Origin: Sphingomonadales bacterium
Lineage (GTDB): Bacteria; Pseudomonadota; Alphaproteobacteria; Sphingomonadales; Sphingomonadaceae
Direction of reading: 5' to 3'
DNA: 38,571 nt
Assembly: GCA_028868335.1 (NCBI GenBank)
Contig: JAGWUU010000003.1
Coordinates: 1 to 38,571, forward strand
The notes beneath the pieces are model-generated. The model did not search any database. It worked only from the letters and a program-made list of their open reading frames with translations, and was not told the origin of the DNA. The translations under genes were made by a program, and so were the position numbers. Of this stretch, positions 1 through 38,571 are shown piece by piece; within the stretch, counting starts at the first letter, position 1; each line of letters starts with the position of its first letter.

Positions 1-143
1 GCCGCTGAGGTAGAGCGAGCCGCCGATCGTCGCCGGCAAGGTGACTCCGGCGAGATCGCAGCCGCTGAGGTAGAGCGAGCCGCCGATCGTCGTCGGCAAG
101 GTGACTCCGGCGAGATCGCAGCCGCTGAGGTAGAGCGAGCCGC
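1..143. repeat. 60-bp tandem repeat, 2.4 copies, coding
   Basis: Positions 1-60 and 61-120 are identical except for one base (c33 versus t93), and 121-143 repeats the first 23 bases of the unit. Sixty bases is twenty codons, so the array stays in frame on the minus strand and gives a 20-residue protein repeat. The array continues beyond the left edge, so the copy number is unknown. Near-identity of adjacent units suggests recent duplication or slippage. Confidence 0.95.
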
Positions 144-237
144 TGACATGATATTCGCCTTGGATCGTTTTCGCCCTGATCAAGCGATAGGCGCGGTTAG
201 CGGTATATGTCGGAATCTTGGTTATTGTGTTTGTCAC
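1..237 (-). CDS. Partial 20-residue-repeat protein (N-terminal part)
   Basis: The reading frame opens with GTG at 235-237 (a GGAG lies about 8 bases upstream) and runs off the left edge, so only the first 79 codons are seen. The N-terminus begins VTNTITKIPTYTANRAYRLI. It is followed by 20-residue repeats containing CDLAGVTLPATIGGSLYLSG, with regularly spaced Leu/Ile/Val, Gly and Cys as in beta-solenoid or leucine-rich-like stacks. Similar repeat proteins occur in phage accessory regions, but no function is known to me. The start codon overlaps the preceding small gene's TAG by one base, and a strong hairpin lies just upstream. The C-terminus and full length cannot be seen. Confidence 0.7.
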   Translation of the reverse strand, partial: MTNTITKIPTYTANRAYRLIRAKTIQGEYHVSGSLYLSGCDLAGVTLPTTIGGSLYLSGCDLAGVTLPATIGGSLYLSG

Positions 238-365: not shown

Positions 366-475
366 GGCAGCACCGCAGCGATCATCACGAACACCGCCAG
401 CCCGAGTGGCACGCACACCGCCATGCCGACCAGTTCGGCGCGGGGCATGGTGCGCAGGGTTTCGCGCAGGGTCAC
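362..475 (-). CDS. Small single-span membrane protein (37 aa)
   Basis: GTG start at 473-475 overlaps the upstream stop (GTGA), and its own TGA overlaps the next GTG. The product has a short charged N-terminus (TLRETLRTMPRAE) and one long hydrophobic segment from about residue 15 to the end, so it is probably a one-span inner-membrane peptide. No family is recognised. It is part of a coupled series of small genes behind the repressor-type operator at 1200-1213. Confidence 0.5.
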   Translation of the reverse strand: MTLRETLRTMPRAELVGMAVCVPLGLAVFVMIAAVLP

Positions 476-753
476 AGCACGTCTCCCAGCTTGCGGGCGA
501 GCGCACGGCCAACCCCATGTTCGGTAAAAAGGTGATCCAGCAGGGCCGCGCGGGCCTCGTATGCCGCTTCGTCGGCGCGGCAGTATTGCGCATCGCTGAT
601 CGCGTCGCCCATGCCTTGCAGCGCGAGCAGGTTGTCGCTTGCCGCTGCAGCCCGTTCGATCATGGCGCGCAGGCTGGGCTTGCCCCACGCCTTCGCCGCG
701 ATCTCCTTCGCGGCGTAGGCGTCGAGCCGGGCGCGTTGGGCGGTGCGGCTCAC
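472..753 (-). CDS. Hypothetical protein, helical (93 aa)
   Basis: Starts with GTG at 751-753, overlapping the TGA of the preceding 23-codon gene (GTGA). The frame is open further upstream, but that extension is Arg/Trp-rich and lies over the preceding gene, so the coupled GTG is preferred. The product is Ala-, Arg- and Leu-rich and looks fully helical, with segments such as KEIAAKAWGKPSLRAMIER and EAAYEARAALLDHLFTEHG. It is soluble, with no signal peptide or membrane segment. No family is recognised. Confidence 0.6.
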   Translation of the reverse strand: MSRTAQRARLDAYAAKEIAAKAWGKPSLRAMIERAAAASDNLLALQGMGDAISDAQYCRADEAAYEARAALLDHLFTEHGVGRALARKLGDVL

Positions 754-821
754 AGCCCCCACTCCGATGCGCTGATGCCCTTGAACAACCGGGCGATGAT
801 CCAGTCGATGAGGCGGGTCAT
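750..821 (-). CDS. Microprotein (23 aa), coupled at both ends
   Basis: ATG at 819-821 overlaps the upstream TGA (ATGA), and its TGA overlaps the downstream GTG (GTGA). The product, MTRLIDWIIARLFKGISASE plus three residues (WGL), has an amphipathic or hydrophobic helix followed by a short tail. It exactly fills the gap between two larger genes, which supports real translation. It may be a membrane-associated peptide or only a ribosome bridge that couples its neighbours. Confidence 0.4.
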   Translation of the reverse strand: MTRLIDWIIARLFKGISASEWGL

Positions 822-1171
822 GCCGCCACCTGCACCGCCAGAGCCGCGTCAATCTCCAGCGCCAGCGCAGTGCGGCGCGCGGCGCGATCGGGATGCGCCC
901 AGTCGAGCCCATCGGGATCGCCGAACAGCGCGGCCAGAACCTCGTTGGCGCTGGTTTCGAGAAGTTCGCGGGCCGTGTCCGCGTCCCATCCCGCGCGGTT
1001 CATCGCTTCCCATGCGAGGGTGAAGCGGGTGCGCAGGGCATCGGCGTCGGCGCCGCGATAACCCGCGTTGGTCAGGAGCGGATTGCCGCTGGTGTTGCGG
1101 GCCAGTTCAGGCGGGGCAGCGCGAAGGCGCTTCAGGATCGCGAGGGCGGCAGGGGTGAGATACCAGGGCAT
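818..1171 (-). CDS. Hypothetical protein, first gene of left operon (117 aa)
   Basis: ATG at 1169-1171 is preceded by GGAGATGG, a good ribosome-binding site about 7 bases away. The product starts MPWYLTPAALAILKRLRAAP and is helical, Ala/Arg-rich and soluble, with the pattern FTLAWEAMNRAGWDADTA in the middle. I do not recognise the family. It heads the coupled left operon. The leader in front carries a palindromic operator shared with the immunity region and a hairpin over its ribosome-binding site, so expression is probably repressed in the lysogen. Confidence 0.65.
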   Translation of the reverse strand: MPWYLTPAALAILKRLRAAPPELARNTSGNPLLTNAGYRGADADALRTRFTLAWEAMNRAGWDADTARELLETSANEVLAALFGDPDGLDWAHPDRAARRTALALEIDAALAVQVAA

Positions 1172-1195: not shown

Positions 1196-1199
1196 AAAT

Positions 1200-1246
1200 T
1201 AGCATCATTGCTACATGATGCAAGCCCTAAATTAGCATTGTTGCAA
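1200..1246 (-). promoter_or_regulatory. Promoter with repressor-type operators for the left operon
   Basis: TAGCATCATTGCTA (1200-1213) is a perfect TAGCA-N4-TGCTA palindrome, identical over all 14 bases to the one at 2474-2487. A degenerate copy, TAGCATTGTTGCAA, lies at 1233-1246. Read leftward, TTGCAT and TAATTT spaced 16 bases apart could be -35 and -10 elements with the palindrome between them. This position would let the S24 repressor or the Cro-like protein block the small-gene operon. Confidence 0.6.
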
Positions 1247-1253
1247 AATCAGC

Positions 1254-1265
1254 GATTGGCCAATC
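1254..1265. repeat. 12-bp perfect palindrome after the lipoprotein stop
   Basis: GATTGGCCAATC reads the same on both strands and lies a few bases downstream of the lipoprotein gene. It has no loop and no T-run, so a terminator role is doubtful; a protein-binding site is possible. Confidence 0.35.
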
Positions 1266-1269
1266 TAAG

Positions 1270-1734
1270 CTAGATGTTGTCGAGTGGCCGATCGTGAGAG
1301 ACAATCTTGATACCGCTGCAGCGATGAACGACCACATACCCTTGGAAACTGGCACCGCGACAATGCAGTTCGAGATCATCATGTGGCACGAGTCCGACCG
1401 CCATTGCTCGATCCACAATCTCGGCAGCGACAGGAATTGAGGTTCCACCTGTGTTCAGGTTGATCCTGGGCAGGTCATCTGAGCCCGACCGTGCATCTTC
1501 TACGCTTGTGACCCATCCCTTCAGGACAATGGAAGCGTCACCATATCGTTGATTGGCGTCAACAGAATTGGAACCAAACTGTTCATCAAGCTCAACCGCG
1601 CTGACGGAAATTGCTGACGAAGCGTCGAAGGATTGCGCAATTGACTGACGTTCATTTGCATCGGATCGGGGCTCTGCGTGGCAGCCGCTAGTCGCAATGA
1701 TCACAGCGATAGAGGCGCCGAAGCCGATCTTCAC
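1270..1734 (-). CDS. Putative lipoprotein with tRNA_anti-like (OB-fold) domain
   Basis: This 154-residue protein starts MKIGFGASIAVIIATSGCHA: a short positive N-terminus, a hydrophobic stretch and a Cys at residue 18 at a plausible lipobox (TSGC), so export and lipid anchoring are likely. After a Ser-rich linker comes ISVSAVELDEQFGSNSVDAN, then YGDASIVLKGWV. This pattern matches the tRNA_anti-like OB-fold family, where a segment about membership of new residues in the cell precedes a beta-barrel. Its ATG overlaps the repressor stop (ATGA), so it should be made together with the repressor in the lysogen. An envelope protein of this kind suggests lysogenic conversion or superinfection exclusion; that function is inference. 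Confidence 0.7.
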   Translation of the reverse strand: MKIGFGASIAVIIATSGCHAEPRSDANERQSIAQSFDASSAISVSAVELDEQFGSNSVDANQRYGDASIVLKGWVTSVEDARSGSDDLPRINLNTGGTSIPVAAEIVDRAMAVGLVPHDDLELHCRGASFQGYVVVHRCSGIKIVSHDRPLDNI

Positions 1735-2414
1735 ATCCTTCTCCCGACCCAGATCAATTTTCCGATGACGTGAATGTCCTCAATATCGGCCATCTGCGGC
1801 GGAACCTCCTTGTTGTCCGAGATTATCATGAATCTGTCAGAGCCGCCGTCTCGCACGCGCCGGAGCCGCTTGATCATACCGCCGCCGGCATAGGTGAACG
1901 CCCAGATTTGATCGGAGAGCGACGGATTGCGATCTGCGGTGTCGACCATCAGGAGGTCGGAGCGCAGCAATGTAGGCTCCATGCTGTCTCCATGCCCGGA
2001 CATCACCACGAGCTTCTCAGTCGTCGCCTTTGTGATCGCCCTGATAAAGCCGAGATTGAACGGGATCAGGCTGGTCGCTGGATGGTCCTCAACGACCATA
2101 CCGTCGCCCATCGCAAGTCGAATATCGACTTCGCGGACATAGACCAACTCGTCGGGCACCTCGTTTGGATCGGCGTGCTGACCCAGCATTCCAACCTGGT
2201 CCGGTGCCTCGGTTCGCCAACCCGGAAAATCAGGCCAACGCCGCTTCAGCTTTTCGAGCGTCGGTTGGCTAAGTCGCGTGGTCGCCGTGCCCTTGTAGGG
2301 CCGCAGGATTGTGGTGGCAGCGACGTCCACCTCTTTCGCAACCGCGCTCGGAGCGAGGCGCGCAAACCGGCAAAGCGCTTGGATTAATTCGGTATCAGAA
2401 GCGAGGCCATCCAT
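1731..2414 (-). CDS. S24/LexA-like phage repressor
   Basis: The 227-residue product has an N-terminal DNA-binding region (about residues 8-60; ARLAPSAVAKEVDVAATTI is helix-turn-helix-like) and a C-terminal S24 domain. The motif GDSMEPT carries the presumed nucleophile Ser144, and Lys182 in MIKRLRRV completes the Ser/Lys dyad of LexA/CI-type repressors, so RecA-stimulated self-cleavage is likely. The frame is open back to 2594, but the extra 60 codons would cover the operators and the start of the opposing gene, so ATG at 2412-2414 is chosen. Other starts near 2450 cannot be excluded. It lies divergently to a Cro-like gene and is coupled to the lipoprotein gene. Confidence 0.85.
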   Translation of the reverse strand: MDGLASDTELIQALCRFARLAPSAVAKEVDVAATTILRPYKGTATTRLSQPTLEKLKRRWPDFPGWRTEAPDQVGMLGQHADPNEVPDELVYVREVDIRLAMGDGMVVEDHPATSLIPFNLGFIRAITKATTEKLVVMSGHGDSMEPTLLRSDLLMVDTADRNPSLSDQIWAFTYAGGGMIKRLRRVRDGGSDRFMIISDNKEVPPQMADIEDIHVIGKLIWVGRRM

Positions 2415-2501
2415 CGCTCGCTGACTAGCAGGAATGCTAATCCCCAGCACTTTGCAAGATTGCTGTTGCAAAGTAGCATCATTGCTAATATCGTTAGCAT
2501 T
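2415..2501. promoter_or_regulatory. Divergent immunity control region with two palindromic operators
   Basis: Perfect TAGCA-N4-TGCTA palindromes lie at 2426-2439 and 2474-2487, with a half-site TAGCA at 2495-2499. TTGCAA occurs at 2452-2457 and 2466-2471. A possible rightward -10 TAATAT (2486-2491) overlaps the second palindrome and lies only about 10 bases before the Cro-like ATG, with no Shine-Dalgarno between, so that transcript may be leaderless. The arrangement resembles a lambda-type OR switch with different operators. Confidence 0.7.
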
Positions 2502-2735
2502 ATGGACCAGCAGGAAATCATCGCGAGCCTTGAAAGCCGTGCCCGCACCGCCGGATTGGCTATGTCGGAAGTGTGCCGACGCGCCAACATTCATCCGACG
2601 ACGTTTTCACGCTGGAAGCAGAGCGAGAAAAATCCCGACCCGATCGGTGCAACGATCAAGAGTTTGTCGGCTCTCGATGATGTTCTGAAGCAAACCGAGG
2701 CCGCCTCGCCCGACGCCACCCCGGAGGCAGCATGA
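2502..2735 (+). CDS. Cro-like helix-turn-helix regulator
   Basis: The 77-residue protein begins MDQQEIIASLESRARTAGLA and continues with MSEVCRRANIHPTTFSRWKQ, a clear helix-turn-helix typical of phage Cro/C1 regulators. The C-terminal part is a short polar tail. The frame is open upstream to 2460, but ATG 2502 fits the MDQQE start of the family style and leaves the operators free. It is the first gene of the rightward early operon and overlaps the next gene as ATGA. Its likely role is to bind the same palindromes as the S24 repressor and favour lytic growth. Confidence 0.75.
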   Translation: MDQQEIIASLESRARTAGLAMSEVCRRANIHPTTFSRWKQSEKNPDPIGATIKSLSALDDVLKQTEAASPDATPEAA

Positions 2736-35845: not shown

Positions 35846-36135
35846 CAGTATGCCCCGCAAAGGATCGCGATGTCTCCGCCTTCGGGGTTGCACCATCCTT
35901 CAGTGGCTGCGCGGTTCGCGGCAGACCGCGCCTCGATGTAAACGAGTGCGAGTCCGGTCATTCCAGCCTCATCGTCGAGTTCCTGCAACTGCACCATGTA
36001 GGTCGCTTCAGCTTCGATCGGGTTGGCGTCAGCAGCTTGAAAAACAGCCAGCGCGGCGTCCTCGGCGCGGGATTCATCGGACGCGTCTCCGCGACCCAAG
36101 TTCCACTCGATACCGATGTGCATGGACTTGAACAT
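35845..36135 (-). CDS. Hypothetical protein (96 aa), first gene after an internal promoter
   Basis: ATG 36133-36135 follows AAGGAG by about 8 bases. The product starts MFKSMHIGIEWNLGRGDASD and continues as an acidic, Ala-rich helical protein (EDAALAVFQAADANPIEAEA). It has no membrane segment. No family is recognised. It lies between the promoter and the HTH gene, to which it is coupled by TGATG. Confidence 0.65.
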   Translation of the reverse strand: MFKSMHIGIEWNLGRGDASDESRAEDAALAVFQAADANPIEAEATYMVQLQELDDEAGMTGLALVYIEARSAANRAATEGWCNPEGGDIAILCGAY

Positions 36136-36188
36136 TCGAGGTCTCCTTACCTATCGCGGTGGGCCGTCCCTCCGCTCTTGATGAACAC

Positions 36189-36216
36189 AGAATACACCTA
36201 TCGTGTATTAAGTCAA
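36189..36216 (-). promoter_or_regulatory. Leftward promoter overlain by 19-bp palindrome
   Basis: Read leftward, TTGACT (36211-36216) and TATTCT (36189-36194) are 16 bases apart, close to sigma-70 consensus. AATACAC (36191-36197) and GTGTATT (36203-36209) are perfect inverted 7-mers with a 5-base spacer and cover the -10 element and most of the spacer. A dimeric repressor bound here would block the promoter. The local AT richness stands out. Confidence 0.7.
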
Positions 36217-36251
36217 GCATCAATCGCACTCGGTTCGTCGCATTTTTCTGC

Positions 36252-36428
36252 TCATTGCCTCCCCAGATCCAGGCGCCAGATAGCCTCCCGCTCCGCCGCC
36301 TCGCGATGGGCGGCAAGATGCCGGACCAGCACGTCAGCCGCGCCGGAGGTAAAATCTTCGCATGAGATGCCGAGGGCGTGCGCGAGTTCGGCGGATCGAT
36401 CCTTGTCGGCCTGCGTCACCTCAACCAT
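36252..36428 (-). CDS. Small hypothetical protein (58 aa)
   Basis: ATG 36426-36428 overlaps the stop of the preceding gene by 8 bases, and the gene ends with TGA at 36252-36254. The product starts MVEVTQADKDRSAELAHALG, contains ISCEDFTSGAADVLVRHLAA and ends HREAAEREAIWRLDLGRQ. It is a charged helical protein. No family is recognised. It is the last gene of the right minus-strand block before the internal promoter. Confidence 0.6.
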   Translation of the reverse strand: MVEVTQADKDRSAELAHALGISCEDFTSGAADVLVRHLAAHREAAEREAIWRLDLGRQ

Positions 36429-36801
36429 CGGTCTTGTCCTTCAATGCGCGGATTGCCCTATATAGGCTTTTCCCTGCGGCATAGCGCGGTTCCTGCATCG
36501 TGCCATGCGGAAACCACGCCTCGGCCTCTGCCGCCGCCTCGTCCAGCGCCTTGGCCCGCGCTTCGGCTTCGCGGTTGGCGATGATGGGGAGGATGGCGCG
36601 GGCGCTGTGTAGGTAGTGACGACGCGCCTGTTCGGCATCGTGATCTTCATAGAAGGCAGCAACACAACTTCCACTGTCGCAATAGCCTTCGTCAGGATTG
36701 GCATCGACGCCGCAGACTTCATCGAAGTCCAGACCCTCGGCATCGGCCAGCTTACGCGCCAGTTCCTCAACCAGCGCGTCGTCAGTGGTCGGTCCGGTCA
36801 T
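36421..36801 (-). CDS. Hypothetical acidic protein (126 aa)
   Basis: ATG 36799-36801 overlaps the preceding stop (ATGA); an upstream extension to 36843 is less likely. The product has MTGPTTDDALVEELARKLAD, DEVCGVDANPDEGYCDSGSC and a helical second half (REAEARAKALDEAAAEAEAW). Three Cys lie close together (CGV, YCD, SGSC), but metal binding is uncertain. It resembles the small helical proteins of phage accessory or early regions. Confidence 0.65.
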   Translation of the reverse strand: MTGPTTDDALVEELARKLADAEGLDFDEVCGVDANPDEGYCDSGSCVAAFYEDHDAEQARRHYLHSARAILPIIANREAEARAKALDEAAAEAEAWFPHGTMQEPRYAAGKSLYRAIRALKDKTDG

Positions 36802-37163
36802 GGCTGTTCTCCGAAGTAGGCGCGGGCGCGCAGCACATTCCATGCGAAGTCAGTCCCTAAATCGTCGCGCGTAAGGTCAATCTCTGTGAACGGTCGCAAA
36901 GCCCCCTCCGCCTTCGCCAGCTTCTCGCGCAGGTCGAGGATTTCGGCCAGTGGGTTTTCCATCCCGTGCGGGACAAAGATACTTCTGACGTGATGCAGAA
37001 GCCCCTCGCTGTTGTCCGTAGTTAAATCTCGCATGTCGCTGTCCACTTTGGACCAAACGACCACACCGTCTCGTTCAAAGACACGAACTGGAATACCGGG
37101 ATCAAATCTGATCGATATAGCATCAGACTTGGCCCGCTCCACAATATCGCTTTGGTCAGTCAT
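36798..37163 (-). CDS. Hypothetical protein (121 aa)
   Basis: ATG 37161-37163 overlaps the preceding gene by 8 bases. The product begins MTDQSDIVERAKSDAISIRF and contains NPLAEILDLREKLAKAEGAL then RPFTEIDLTRDDLGTDF. The latter stretch resembles small phage proteins with a short coiled coil. The function is unknown. The frame upstream to 37352 overlaps the neighbouring gene and is not used. Confidence 0.65.
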   Translation of the reverse strand: MTDQSDIVERAKSDAISIRFDPGIPVRVFERDGVVVWSKVDSDMRDLTTDNSEGLLHHVRSIFVPHGMENPLAEILDLREKLAKAEGALRPFTEIDLTRDDLGTDFAWNVLRARAYFGEQP

Positions 37164-37425
37164 GGCGGACTCCTCGGTTTTCGATCCGCTGTAGGAACTC
37201 CGTGACGTTGGCGCGCCATGTAGGATAAGGAATAGGCATACCGACTGTTCGCTCCAAAAGATCGACAGCCTCATCCCTCTCCGCGATGATCCCCGCGACG
37301 TGTTCATCGACAGCTTTCTGGATGACGGTAGCGGTGTGCCCAGGGAAGCCACCTGCTTGGTAGTAGGATATGGCTTCTGCCCACACCTTCATCGCATCGA
37401 AGGCGGGTTTGGTTTGGTCAGTCAT
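37156..37425 (-). CDS. Hypothetical protein (89 aa)
   Basis: Product starts MTDQTKPAFDAMKVWAEAIS and continues YYQAGGFPGHTATVIQKAVD, EHVAGIIAERDEAVDLLERT and ends with WRANVTEFLQRIENRG. Helical, soluble, with no recognised family. It lies between two small genes of the right minus-strand block. Confidence 0.6.
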   Translation of the reverse strand: MTDQTKPAFDAMKVWAEAISYYQAGGFPGHTATVIQKAVDEHVAGIIAERDEAVDLLERTVGMPIPYPTWRANVTEFLQRIENRGVRHD

Positions 37426-37429
37426 TGGG

Positions 37430-37696
37430 TTAATCCAGTCCGGTTTCGAGGCGCGCTTTGCTGACGAGGTTCGCCATTTCGCGGAACGTGTCGGCCAGTT
37501 CCTTTCGCCGCTCCTTCGACTTCGGGAGCCGGAACGTCACGGCGCTGCGGTCATCGTCGGCGGGAGGATGGTGCAGCCTGTCGCTGCTATGCAGGATCAT
37601 CTGGACGGCGCTATAGACCAACCCGGTGTTGCTCTCCTTCTCGATCAGCAACACTTCTGGGGTCAGTTCCTGACTGTAGACGTTAATTCGCATCAT
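37430..37696 (-). CDS. Hypothetical protein (88 aa)
   Basis: ATG 37694-37696 overlaps the preceding gene. The product starts MMRINVYSQELTPEVLLIEK and contains VQMILHSSDRLHHPPADDDR, then VTFRLPKSKERRKELADTFR. It looks like a compact alpha/beta protein with a helical end. Family unknown. It sits in the middle of the right minus-strand block. Confidence 0.6.
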   Translation of the reverse strand: MMRINVYSQELTPEVLLIEKESNTGLVYSAVQMILHSSDRLHHPPADDDRSAVTFRLPKSKERRKELADTFREMANLVSKARLETGLD

Positions 37697-37979
37697 CGTT
37701 CTCCTTCATCGCTTCGTGAGCGCGGATAGCTGCGGCTGTTTGCGTTTTCCGCGCGGCTTCGGTCCATGGCTCAGCCCAGCCATCGACCACTTCGAGGCGA
37801 GTTTTCAGGCGTTCAATCACGGCTTCGATGGCGGGATTTTTAGCATAGAGAGGAGTTTCTTCCCATCCCCAACCAAGCAACTGGTGGTGTGCTGCATCCC
37901 GATGCTCGTGAATATAATGTTGGCCATCGGGGCCATCATACATCCATGCGAGCGGCGTCAACTCGTCGTTCGTGGTCAT
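37683..37979 (-). CDS. Hypothetical protein (98 aa)
   Basis: ATG 37977-37979 is one base after the XF1762-family stop. The product starts MTTNDELTPLAWMYDGPDGQ and continues HYIHEHRDAAHHQLLGWGWE, then ETPLYAKNPAIEAVIERLKT. The W-M-Y and ETPLYA elements are typical of small phage proteins near replication or accessory genes; the function is not known to me. Confidence 0.65.
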   Translation of the reverse strand: MTTNDELTPLAWMYDGPDGQHYIHEHRDAAHHQLLGWGWEETPLYAKNPAIEAVIERLKTRLEVVDGWAEPWTEAARKTQTAAAIRAHEAMKENDDAN

Positions 37980-37980
37980 G

Positions 37981-38457
37981 TCAGGTGGTCCTTTCAAACA
38001 GCAGTTTCGGTTCGGTCGGGTGCTTGTCGTCACGCAATCGAGATGCCCGCGACCACGACCCGCCCGCCGTCTCTGCGATGCACTTCCACCCAGCAGCGGC
38101 GAGCGATGTTCCCGGCTCGCGCTTCAAAATGTATGTGCCGATCCGGGTGTAGCCGAGCGCGAACGCGGCGCGGGCGGCGCGGCCATAGAGGAATGAGGGG
38201 GCATTCGGCGTTCCATCGGTGCAGAGCCGGGTCACTTCCAAGGTGCGCCCATCATCGCGCCGACGTGCGACAGGCCGGCCGACGATCACGACGCCGACTA
38301 GCGCCTCGTCGAGAATGGCCCCAATACTGAACTTGTGGCCGACTGGCGGGGTGTGATGCCGGTGATGCTGGCGCACGAACTCAGCTGCTTCCGCGAAGTC
38401 GAGAGGGACGGCGCGAAGTCCCACCCCTCCCCCCTGCGAGACAGCGGGGCGCGTCAT
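37981..38457 (-). CDS. XF1762-family (GNAT-like) phage protein
   Basis: The 158-residue product has FAEAAEFVRQHHRHHTPPVG, LVGVVIVGRPVARRRDDGRT then LEVTRLCTDGTPNAPSFLYG, and ILKREPGTSLAAAGWKCIAE. These are the hallmarks of the XF1762 family, small phage-encoded proteins with an acetyltransferase-like fold. The substrate is unknown. ATGA overlap with the partial gene upstream. Confidence 0.85.
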   Translation of the reverse strand: MTRPAVSQGGGVGLRAVPLDFAEAAEFVRQHHRHHTPPVGHKFSIGAILDEALVGVVIVGRPVARRRDDGRTLEVTRLCTDGTPNAPSFLYGRAARAAFALGYTRIGTYILKREPGTSLAAAGWKCIAETAGGSWSRASRLRDDKHPTEPKLLFERTT

Positions 38458-38571
38458 GCAGCTTCACCCGCGCACCACAGCCCGCATTCCGCGTCCATTT
38501 CTGGATCATCATCGAACAGGCCACCTGCGAACAGATCGGGTTGGCGCTGCACGTCGCGGATCAATTCGGCG
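38454..38571 (-). CDS. Partial gene at right edge (C-terminal 38 residues)
   Basis: The C-terminal end of a protein enters from the right edge and stops at 38454-38456, overlapping the XF1762-family ATG. The visible part contains AELIRDVQRQPDLFAGGLFD, then DDPEMDAECGLWCAGEAA. The frame and the ATGA junction support translation. The protein is too incomplete to identify. Confidence 0.55.
   Translation of the reverse strand, partial: AELIRDVQRQPDLFAGGLFDDDPEMDAECGLWCAGEAA

Follow-up and report, generated by a model that had tools for sequence, protein, structure and literature searches.

A contig of a Sphingomonadales bacterium belongs to a temperate myophage whose immunity region very probably has a bipartite operator of the lambda type, at which one repressor, bound to a right (OR) and a left (OL) cluster of sites, would shut both early operons. 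The window, that is, the whole stretch of 38,571 nucleotides analysed, is the entire contig C373 of a 3.05 Mb assembly that is 85% complete. It encodes the genes of a temperate myophage, among them terminase, portal, head protease, major head protein, tail sheath, tape measure, baseplate and endolysin. From left to right, the region consists of small leftward genes, OL, a lipoprotein gene and an S24 repressor gene (both leftward), OR, and a Cro-like gene with the early operon (rightward). Since a palindromic site lies at both ends of the repressor genes, as in lambda, a single repressor is probably able to silence both early operons.

Predicted operators, candidate promoters and genes of the immunity region

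The palindrome TAGCA-N4-TGCTA had been predicted from the letters to occur perfectly at 1200-1213, 2426-2439 and 2474-2487, and a mismatch scan of the window returned exactly these coordinates. The copies at 1200 and 2474 are, as claimed, alike over all 14 bases (TAGCATCATTGCTA). No further perfect copy exists in the window, in agreement with the original prediction, nor elsewhere in the assembly; the whole-genome count, set beforehand as a check, thus came to three perfect copies, all at 1200, 2426 and 2474. A reversed control pattern has five scattered perfect copies in the same 3.05 Mb. Sites with two mismatches number six in the window against a chance mean of 6.05, and therefore only perfect and clustered sites carry weight. 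An exact 14-mer search of viral contigs gave many single matches among the matches listed.

Three tandem sites make up OR, none of the operators being assigned a strand. OR3 (2426-2439, TAGCAGGAATGCTA) lies 12 nt before the repressor start and OR1 (2474-2487) lies 28 nt before the Cro-like start, with OR2 (2452-2465), a variant with two mismatches (TTGCAAGATTGCTG), 26 bp from OR3 and 22 bp from OR1. OR2 was absent from the original prediction and is an additional, fifth site; it is taken as an operator because it is identical, letter for letter, in the related contigs L199 and L201 (it is one base off in L200). Three tandem operators between a repressor gene and a divergent Cro-type gene are what a lambda-type region would have, and the geometry is alike in relatives; however, the OR3-OR2 spacing amounts to 2.5 helical turns, which counts against a lambda-type reading. 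Positions 2449-2474 also form a longer palindrome, ACTTTGCAA-N8-TTGCAAAGT. This was considered as a separate site for the Cro-like protein only and rejected, given that OR2 is kept in L199 and L201 and the right arm is not; because that arm is not conserved, the palindrome is read as OR2 beside the -35 element of the rightward promoter, PR. The candidate PR (2466-2494, plus strand), recognised from the sequence and from relatives L199-L202, comprises TTGCAA (2466-2471), a 17-nt spacer holding OR1, and TATCGT (2489-2494).

On the left, OL1 (1200-1213) has the same sequence as OR1, and OL2 (1233-1246, TAGCATTGTTGCAA) lies 33 bp from it. The latter had been described as a degenerate site and indeed differs by one mismatch. 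A half site proposed at 2495-2499 is likewise present in the sequence, but its position is not conserved in most relatives and it was dropped as an operator. The candidate leftward promoter, PL (1196-1223, minus strand), has TTGCAT (1218-1223) and TAATTT (1196-1201) separated by 16 nt that overlap OL1. Neither candidate promoter reaches the generic sigma-70 consensus threshold, and we infer their use from sequence.

The Cro-like (Ner-like) helix-turn-helix (HTH) protein (2502-2735, plus strand, 77 aa) has a Pfam HTH match and relatives in 29 viral contigs. It found no match when searched against named phages, and neither did a DNA-level search against named phages. Rightward from this gene runs an early helicase/HNH/primase-helicase operon. 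The CI-like repressor (1731-2414, minus strand, 227 aa) combines a helical N-terminal DNA-binding domain with an S24 domain (PF00717, phrog_4). Its AlphaFold model has a mean pLDDT of 86.5, with both domains confident and parts of the linker weak, and its best PDB matches are a lambda-186 hybrid repressor, LexA and lambda CI; families and fold match thus agree on the type of repressor found in a lambda-type region. In our repressor comparison, the S24 dyad keeps its Ser and Lys throughout. However, near the position where the repressors of L202, L203 and L206 have Ala-Gly, that of the window has LAMGDG, without Ala-Gly, so that RecA-driven cleavage is doubtful and induction by this route should not be assumed. 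The C-terminal domains of the repressors diverge strongly among phages with a common operator. A repressor 41% identical to that of the window is encoded in L032, and also in L221; upstream of the L032 gene lie TAGCAGATACGCTA, TAGCATCATTGCTA and TAGCAATGATGCTA, separated by 26 and 22 bp as are 2426, 2452 and 2474 in the window.

The first gene of the leftward operon (818-1171, minus strand) starts 29 nt left of OL1 behind a GGAG ribosome site. Its product of 117 aa belongs to no known family, and searches of 250 genomes and of viral contigs found no relative of it. A second small open reading frame (472-753, minus strand) has no family match, and the start of a protein with a 20-aa repeat (GVTLPATIGGSLYLSGCDLA) occupies 1-237 (minus strand), where it is cut by the contig end. 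An N-type antiterminator was not recognised among the left genes, which gave no family match. In the window the operon is cut off after 1.2 kb by a 60-bp repeat on the contig end, where the assembly breaks. This repeat has only one other copy, on the end of contig C380 (L239, 1-114); genes for an exonuclease, RecT, an integrase and PAPS reductase are present on that contig. Judging from this repeat, C373 and C380 are probably linked, with C380 as the likely remainder of the left operon. EBPR podovirus 1 (JF412294) has a similar repeat at its end. Small leftward genes form an array at the right contig end (about 36000-38571); were the genome circular, this could be the far end of the left operon. 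The original prediction spoke of a remote small-gene operon: a leftward operon of small genes does lie behind the sites, but instead of being remote it is an ordinary lambda-type PL operon adjoining the immunity region, with recombination and integration genes in relatives.

Conservation of the two clusters in related phages

Relatives were picked by searching viral contigs with an alignment of the Cro-like protein (the 29 contigs above), not by the DNA motif. Both clusters are present in 12 non-duplicate contigs besides the window. The claim that the sites flank the repressor/lipoprotein pair and precede a leftward and a rightward operon is thereby supported, with the same operator type at both places and at fixed spacing in these 12 other contigs. 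In all 13, OL is a pair of sites 32, 33 or 34 bp apart, which immediately precedes a leftward gene and lies to the left of the Cro-like start at a distance of 0.8-2.7 kb; a second operator cluster beyond the repressor operon and before the leftward early operon, as in a lambda-type region, is thus found in 13 of 13 contigs. A TTGC occurs at the offset of the candidate PL -35 element in every one of the 13 OL regions. The distance between the outer OR sites is 48 bp in eight contigs, including the window, and 59 bp in five, a step of 11 bp or one helical turn that keeps the phase. A pair of sites 30-36 bp apart was found in 13 of 13 real left flanks vs. 0 of 2600 shuffled ones, and every site with at most one mismatch in the 13 contigs (about 199 kb) falls within OL or OR. 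A fourteenth case, L217, has two mismatches in its second OL site. Many pairs of these loci align as DNA only over short stretches or not at all; since the sites are kept where the surrounding DNA barely aligns, they appear to be selectively kept. The 13 contigs are interrelated, however, and therefore do not represent 13 independent events.

The left operons of the relatives encode ERF (L199, L201 and L207), SSB (L199), a YqaJ exonuclease (L212) and a tyrosine integrase (L207). Recombination and integration genes of the ERF, SSB, exonuclease and integrase types are the contents of the lambda and P22 left operons, and P22 carries erf in its PL operon, a likeness shared by the ERF-encoding relatives. 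For the phage of the window, such genes are seen only through the repeat-linked C380. Two further loci, L042 and L043, encode S24 repressors with other HTH domains and have palindromes of their own, paired on either side of the repressor gene (TGCGA-N3-TCGCA and AATAG-N4-CTATT), which suggests further OL/OR systems in the same bacterial family.

Proposed switch and competing explanations

In a lysogen, the S24 repressor would bind OR1, OR2 and OR3 (2474, 2452 and 2426) together with OL1 and OL2 (1200 and 1233). With OR1 filling the spacer of PR and OL1 overlapping PL, both early operons would be shut, and OR3, beside the repressor start, would limit repressor synthesis. The repressor and lipoprotein genes would form one operon expressed in the lysogen, and in the lytic phase the Cro-like protein probably recognises these sites as well. 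Binding, regulation, autoregulation and possible OL-OR looping are in this scheme predicted from the DNA and its relatives; as to cooperative binding of the repressor to both clusters with looping, the features observed are the spacing and the helical phase.

It is also conceivable, albeit unlikely, that only the Cro-like (Ner-like) protein uses the sites as operators, and that the S24 repressor acts elsewhere or by other contacts. The recognition helix of the Cro-like protein, HPTTFSRW, hardly varies among contigs with TAGCA-type operators, and L203, L205 and L213 keep both TAGCA-type sites and this helix while the recognition region of their repressors is altered. However, where the operator itself changes (GGGAA-type in L225, GAGATTTCTC in L227), the recognition helices of both repressor and Cro-like protein change with it, and sites before the repressor gene itself and at both early promoters are what would be expected of a repressor that maintains lysogeny. 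Both proteins probably bind the sites.

Less probable again is that OR is a real operator and OL a local leftover or duplicate, one that regulates only the lipoprotein or left gene and plays no part in immunity. The Mu-like relatives discussed below do manage with OR alone, but this explanation sits poorly with a pair kept before a leftward gene in every contig that has a left flank, 0.8-2.7 kb from the Cro-like start and with TTGC at the same offset. That the sites are chance palindromes in two AT-rich intergenic stretches can practically be dismissed: the stretches have 41-45% GC vs. 63%, and the two-mismatch count in the window is that of chance, but only about 0.015 perfect copies would be expected in the window by chance, and the conservation of the arrangement in relatives already contradicts it. 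We retain the reading of a bipartite operator that the repressor would bind at OR and OL.

Known immunity systems, the variable slot and Mu-like relatives

The lambda-style OL/OR design is already known, and the present phage is a new, well-supported case with an unusually clear conserved geometry. It resembles the lambda immunity region in its order (left operon, OL, accessory gene or genes, repressor, OR, cro), three-site OR and S24 repressor, and in a left operon that holds recombination and integration genes in the relatives. It differs in its operator and HTH, in having two OL sites where lambda has three, in an OL-OR distance of about 1.25 kb, in an exported lipoprotein in place of rexAB, and in that no N gene was recognised in the window. 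Rhizobium phage 16-3 also has a C repressor with an OL/OR operator layout and, like the phage of the window, is a temperate alphaproteobacterial phage with palindromic operators, although its operator sequence differs from TAGCA-N4-TGCTA. In lambda, two sets of three operators are about 2.3 kb apart (PMC5880393). Work on the repressor and operators of 16-3 is cited in PMC10460002. In phage 434, a second lysogeny gene, hex, overlaps the repressor end (PMC3564112). The lipoprotein gene of the window likewise overlaps the end of the repressor gene, but the slot proteins of this family are exported and, by position and signal rather than by sequence comparison, are set apart from Hex.

The slot between repressor and OL holds, in the window, a small lipoprotein gene (1270-1734, minus strand) with the lipobox ATSGC; its start and the repressor stop share 4 nt (GTGA). 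Its product has a weak tRNA_anti-like (OB fold) match below the cut-off, and its fold model was too poor to use (pLDDT 30.6). In 7 of the 13 contigs a small protein with an N-terminus of hydrophobic or lipoprotein character occupies the slot, and the overlap between its start and the repressor stop is 1, 4 or 22 nt; besides the window these are L202 (6752-7294), L203 (3737-4084), L204 (903-1259), L206 (3484-3798), L207 (6833-7198) and L212 (5964-6236). The L203 protein is of the Rap1a immunity type (E 5e-18) and that of L207 has a sub-threshold Adhesin_E match; those of L204 and L206 are mutually related, and the remainder have no mutual similarity. By position, the slot corresponds to rexAB of lambda and hex of 434, and its proteins may influence the surface of the lysogen or contribute to superinfection exclusion.

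Three related contigs (L214, L221 and L222) encode a Mu transposase together with the same repressor, Ner/Cro-like gene and OR. These elements, the counterparts of the c repressor and ner of Mu-like phages, are thus common to them and the phage of the window. However, OL was looked for in those contigs of the Mu-like group that have sequence left of the repressor, and none was found, whereas the window has OL and a terminase, with an integrase candidate on C380; no Mu transposase was found among the 20 large window proteins scanned, and the phage is not assigned to the Mu-like class. As the Mu-like contigs do without OL, it appears to go with the leftward operon. We lean towards a single interchangeable switch module (repressor, Cro/Ner-like protein and three-site OR) that serves both lambda-like integrating and Mu-like transposing alphaproteobacterial phages, with OL present only alongside a leftward recombination and integration operon and with a fast-changing slot for exported lysogen proteins.

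The slot predicts where surface proteins expressed by lysogens are to be sought. The same switch with OL in integrating phages and without it in Mu-like ones offers a natural comparison, by which the role of OL and of looping becomes testable. More broadly, a family of alphaproteobacterial phages appears to have the complete lambda-style OL/OR logic, with helical phasing conserved, in the hands of DNA-binding proteins that are not close to those of lambda.
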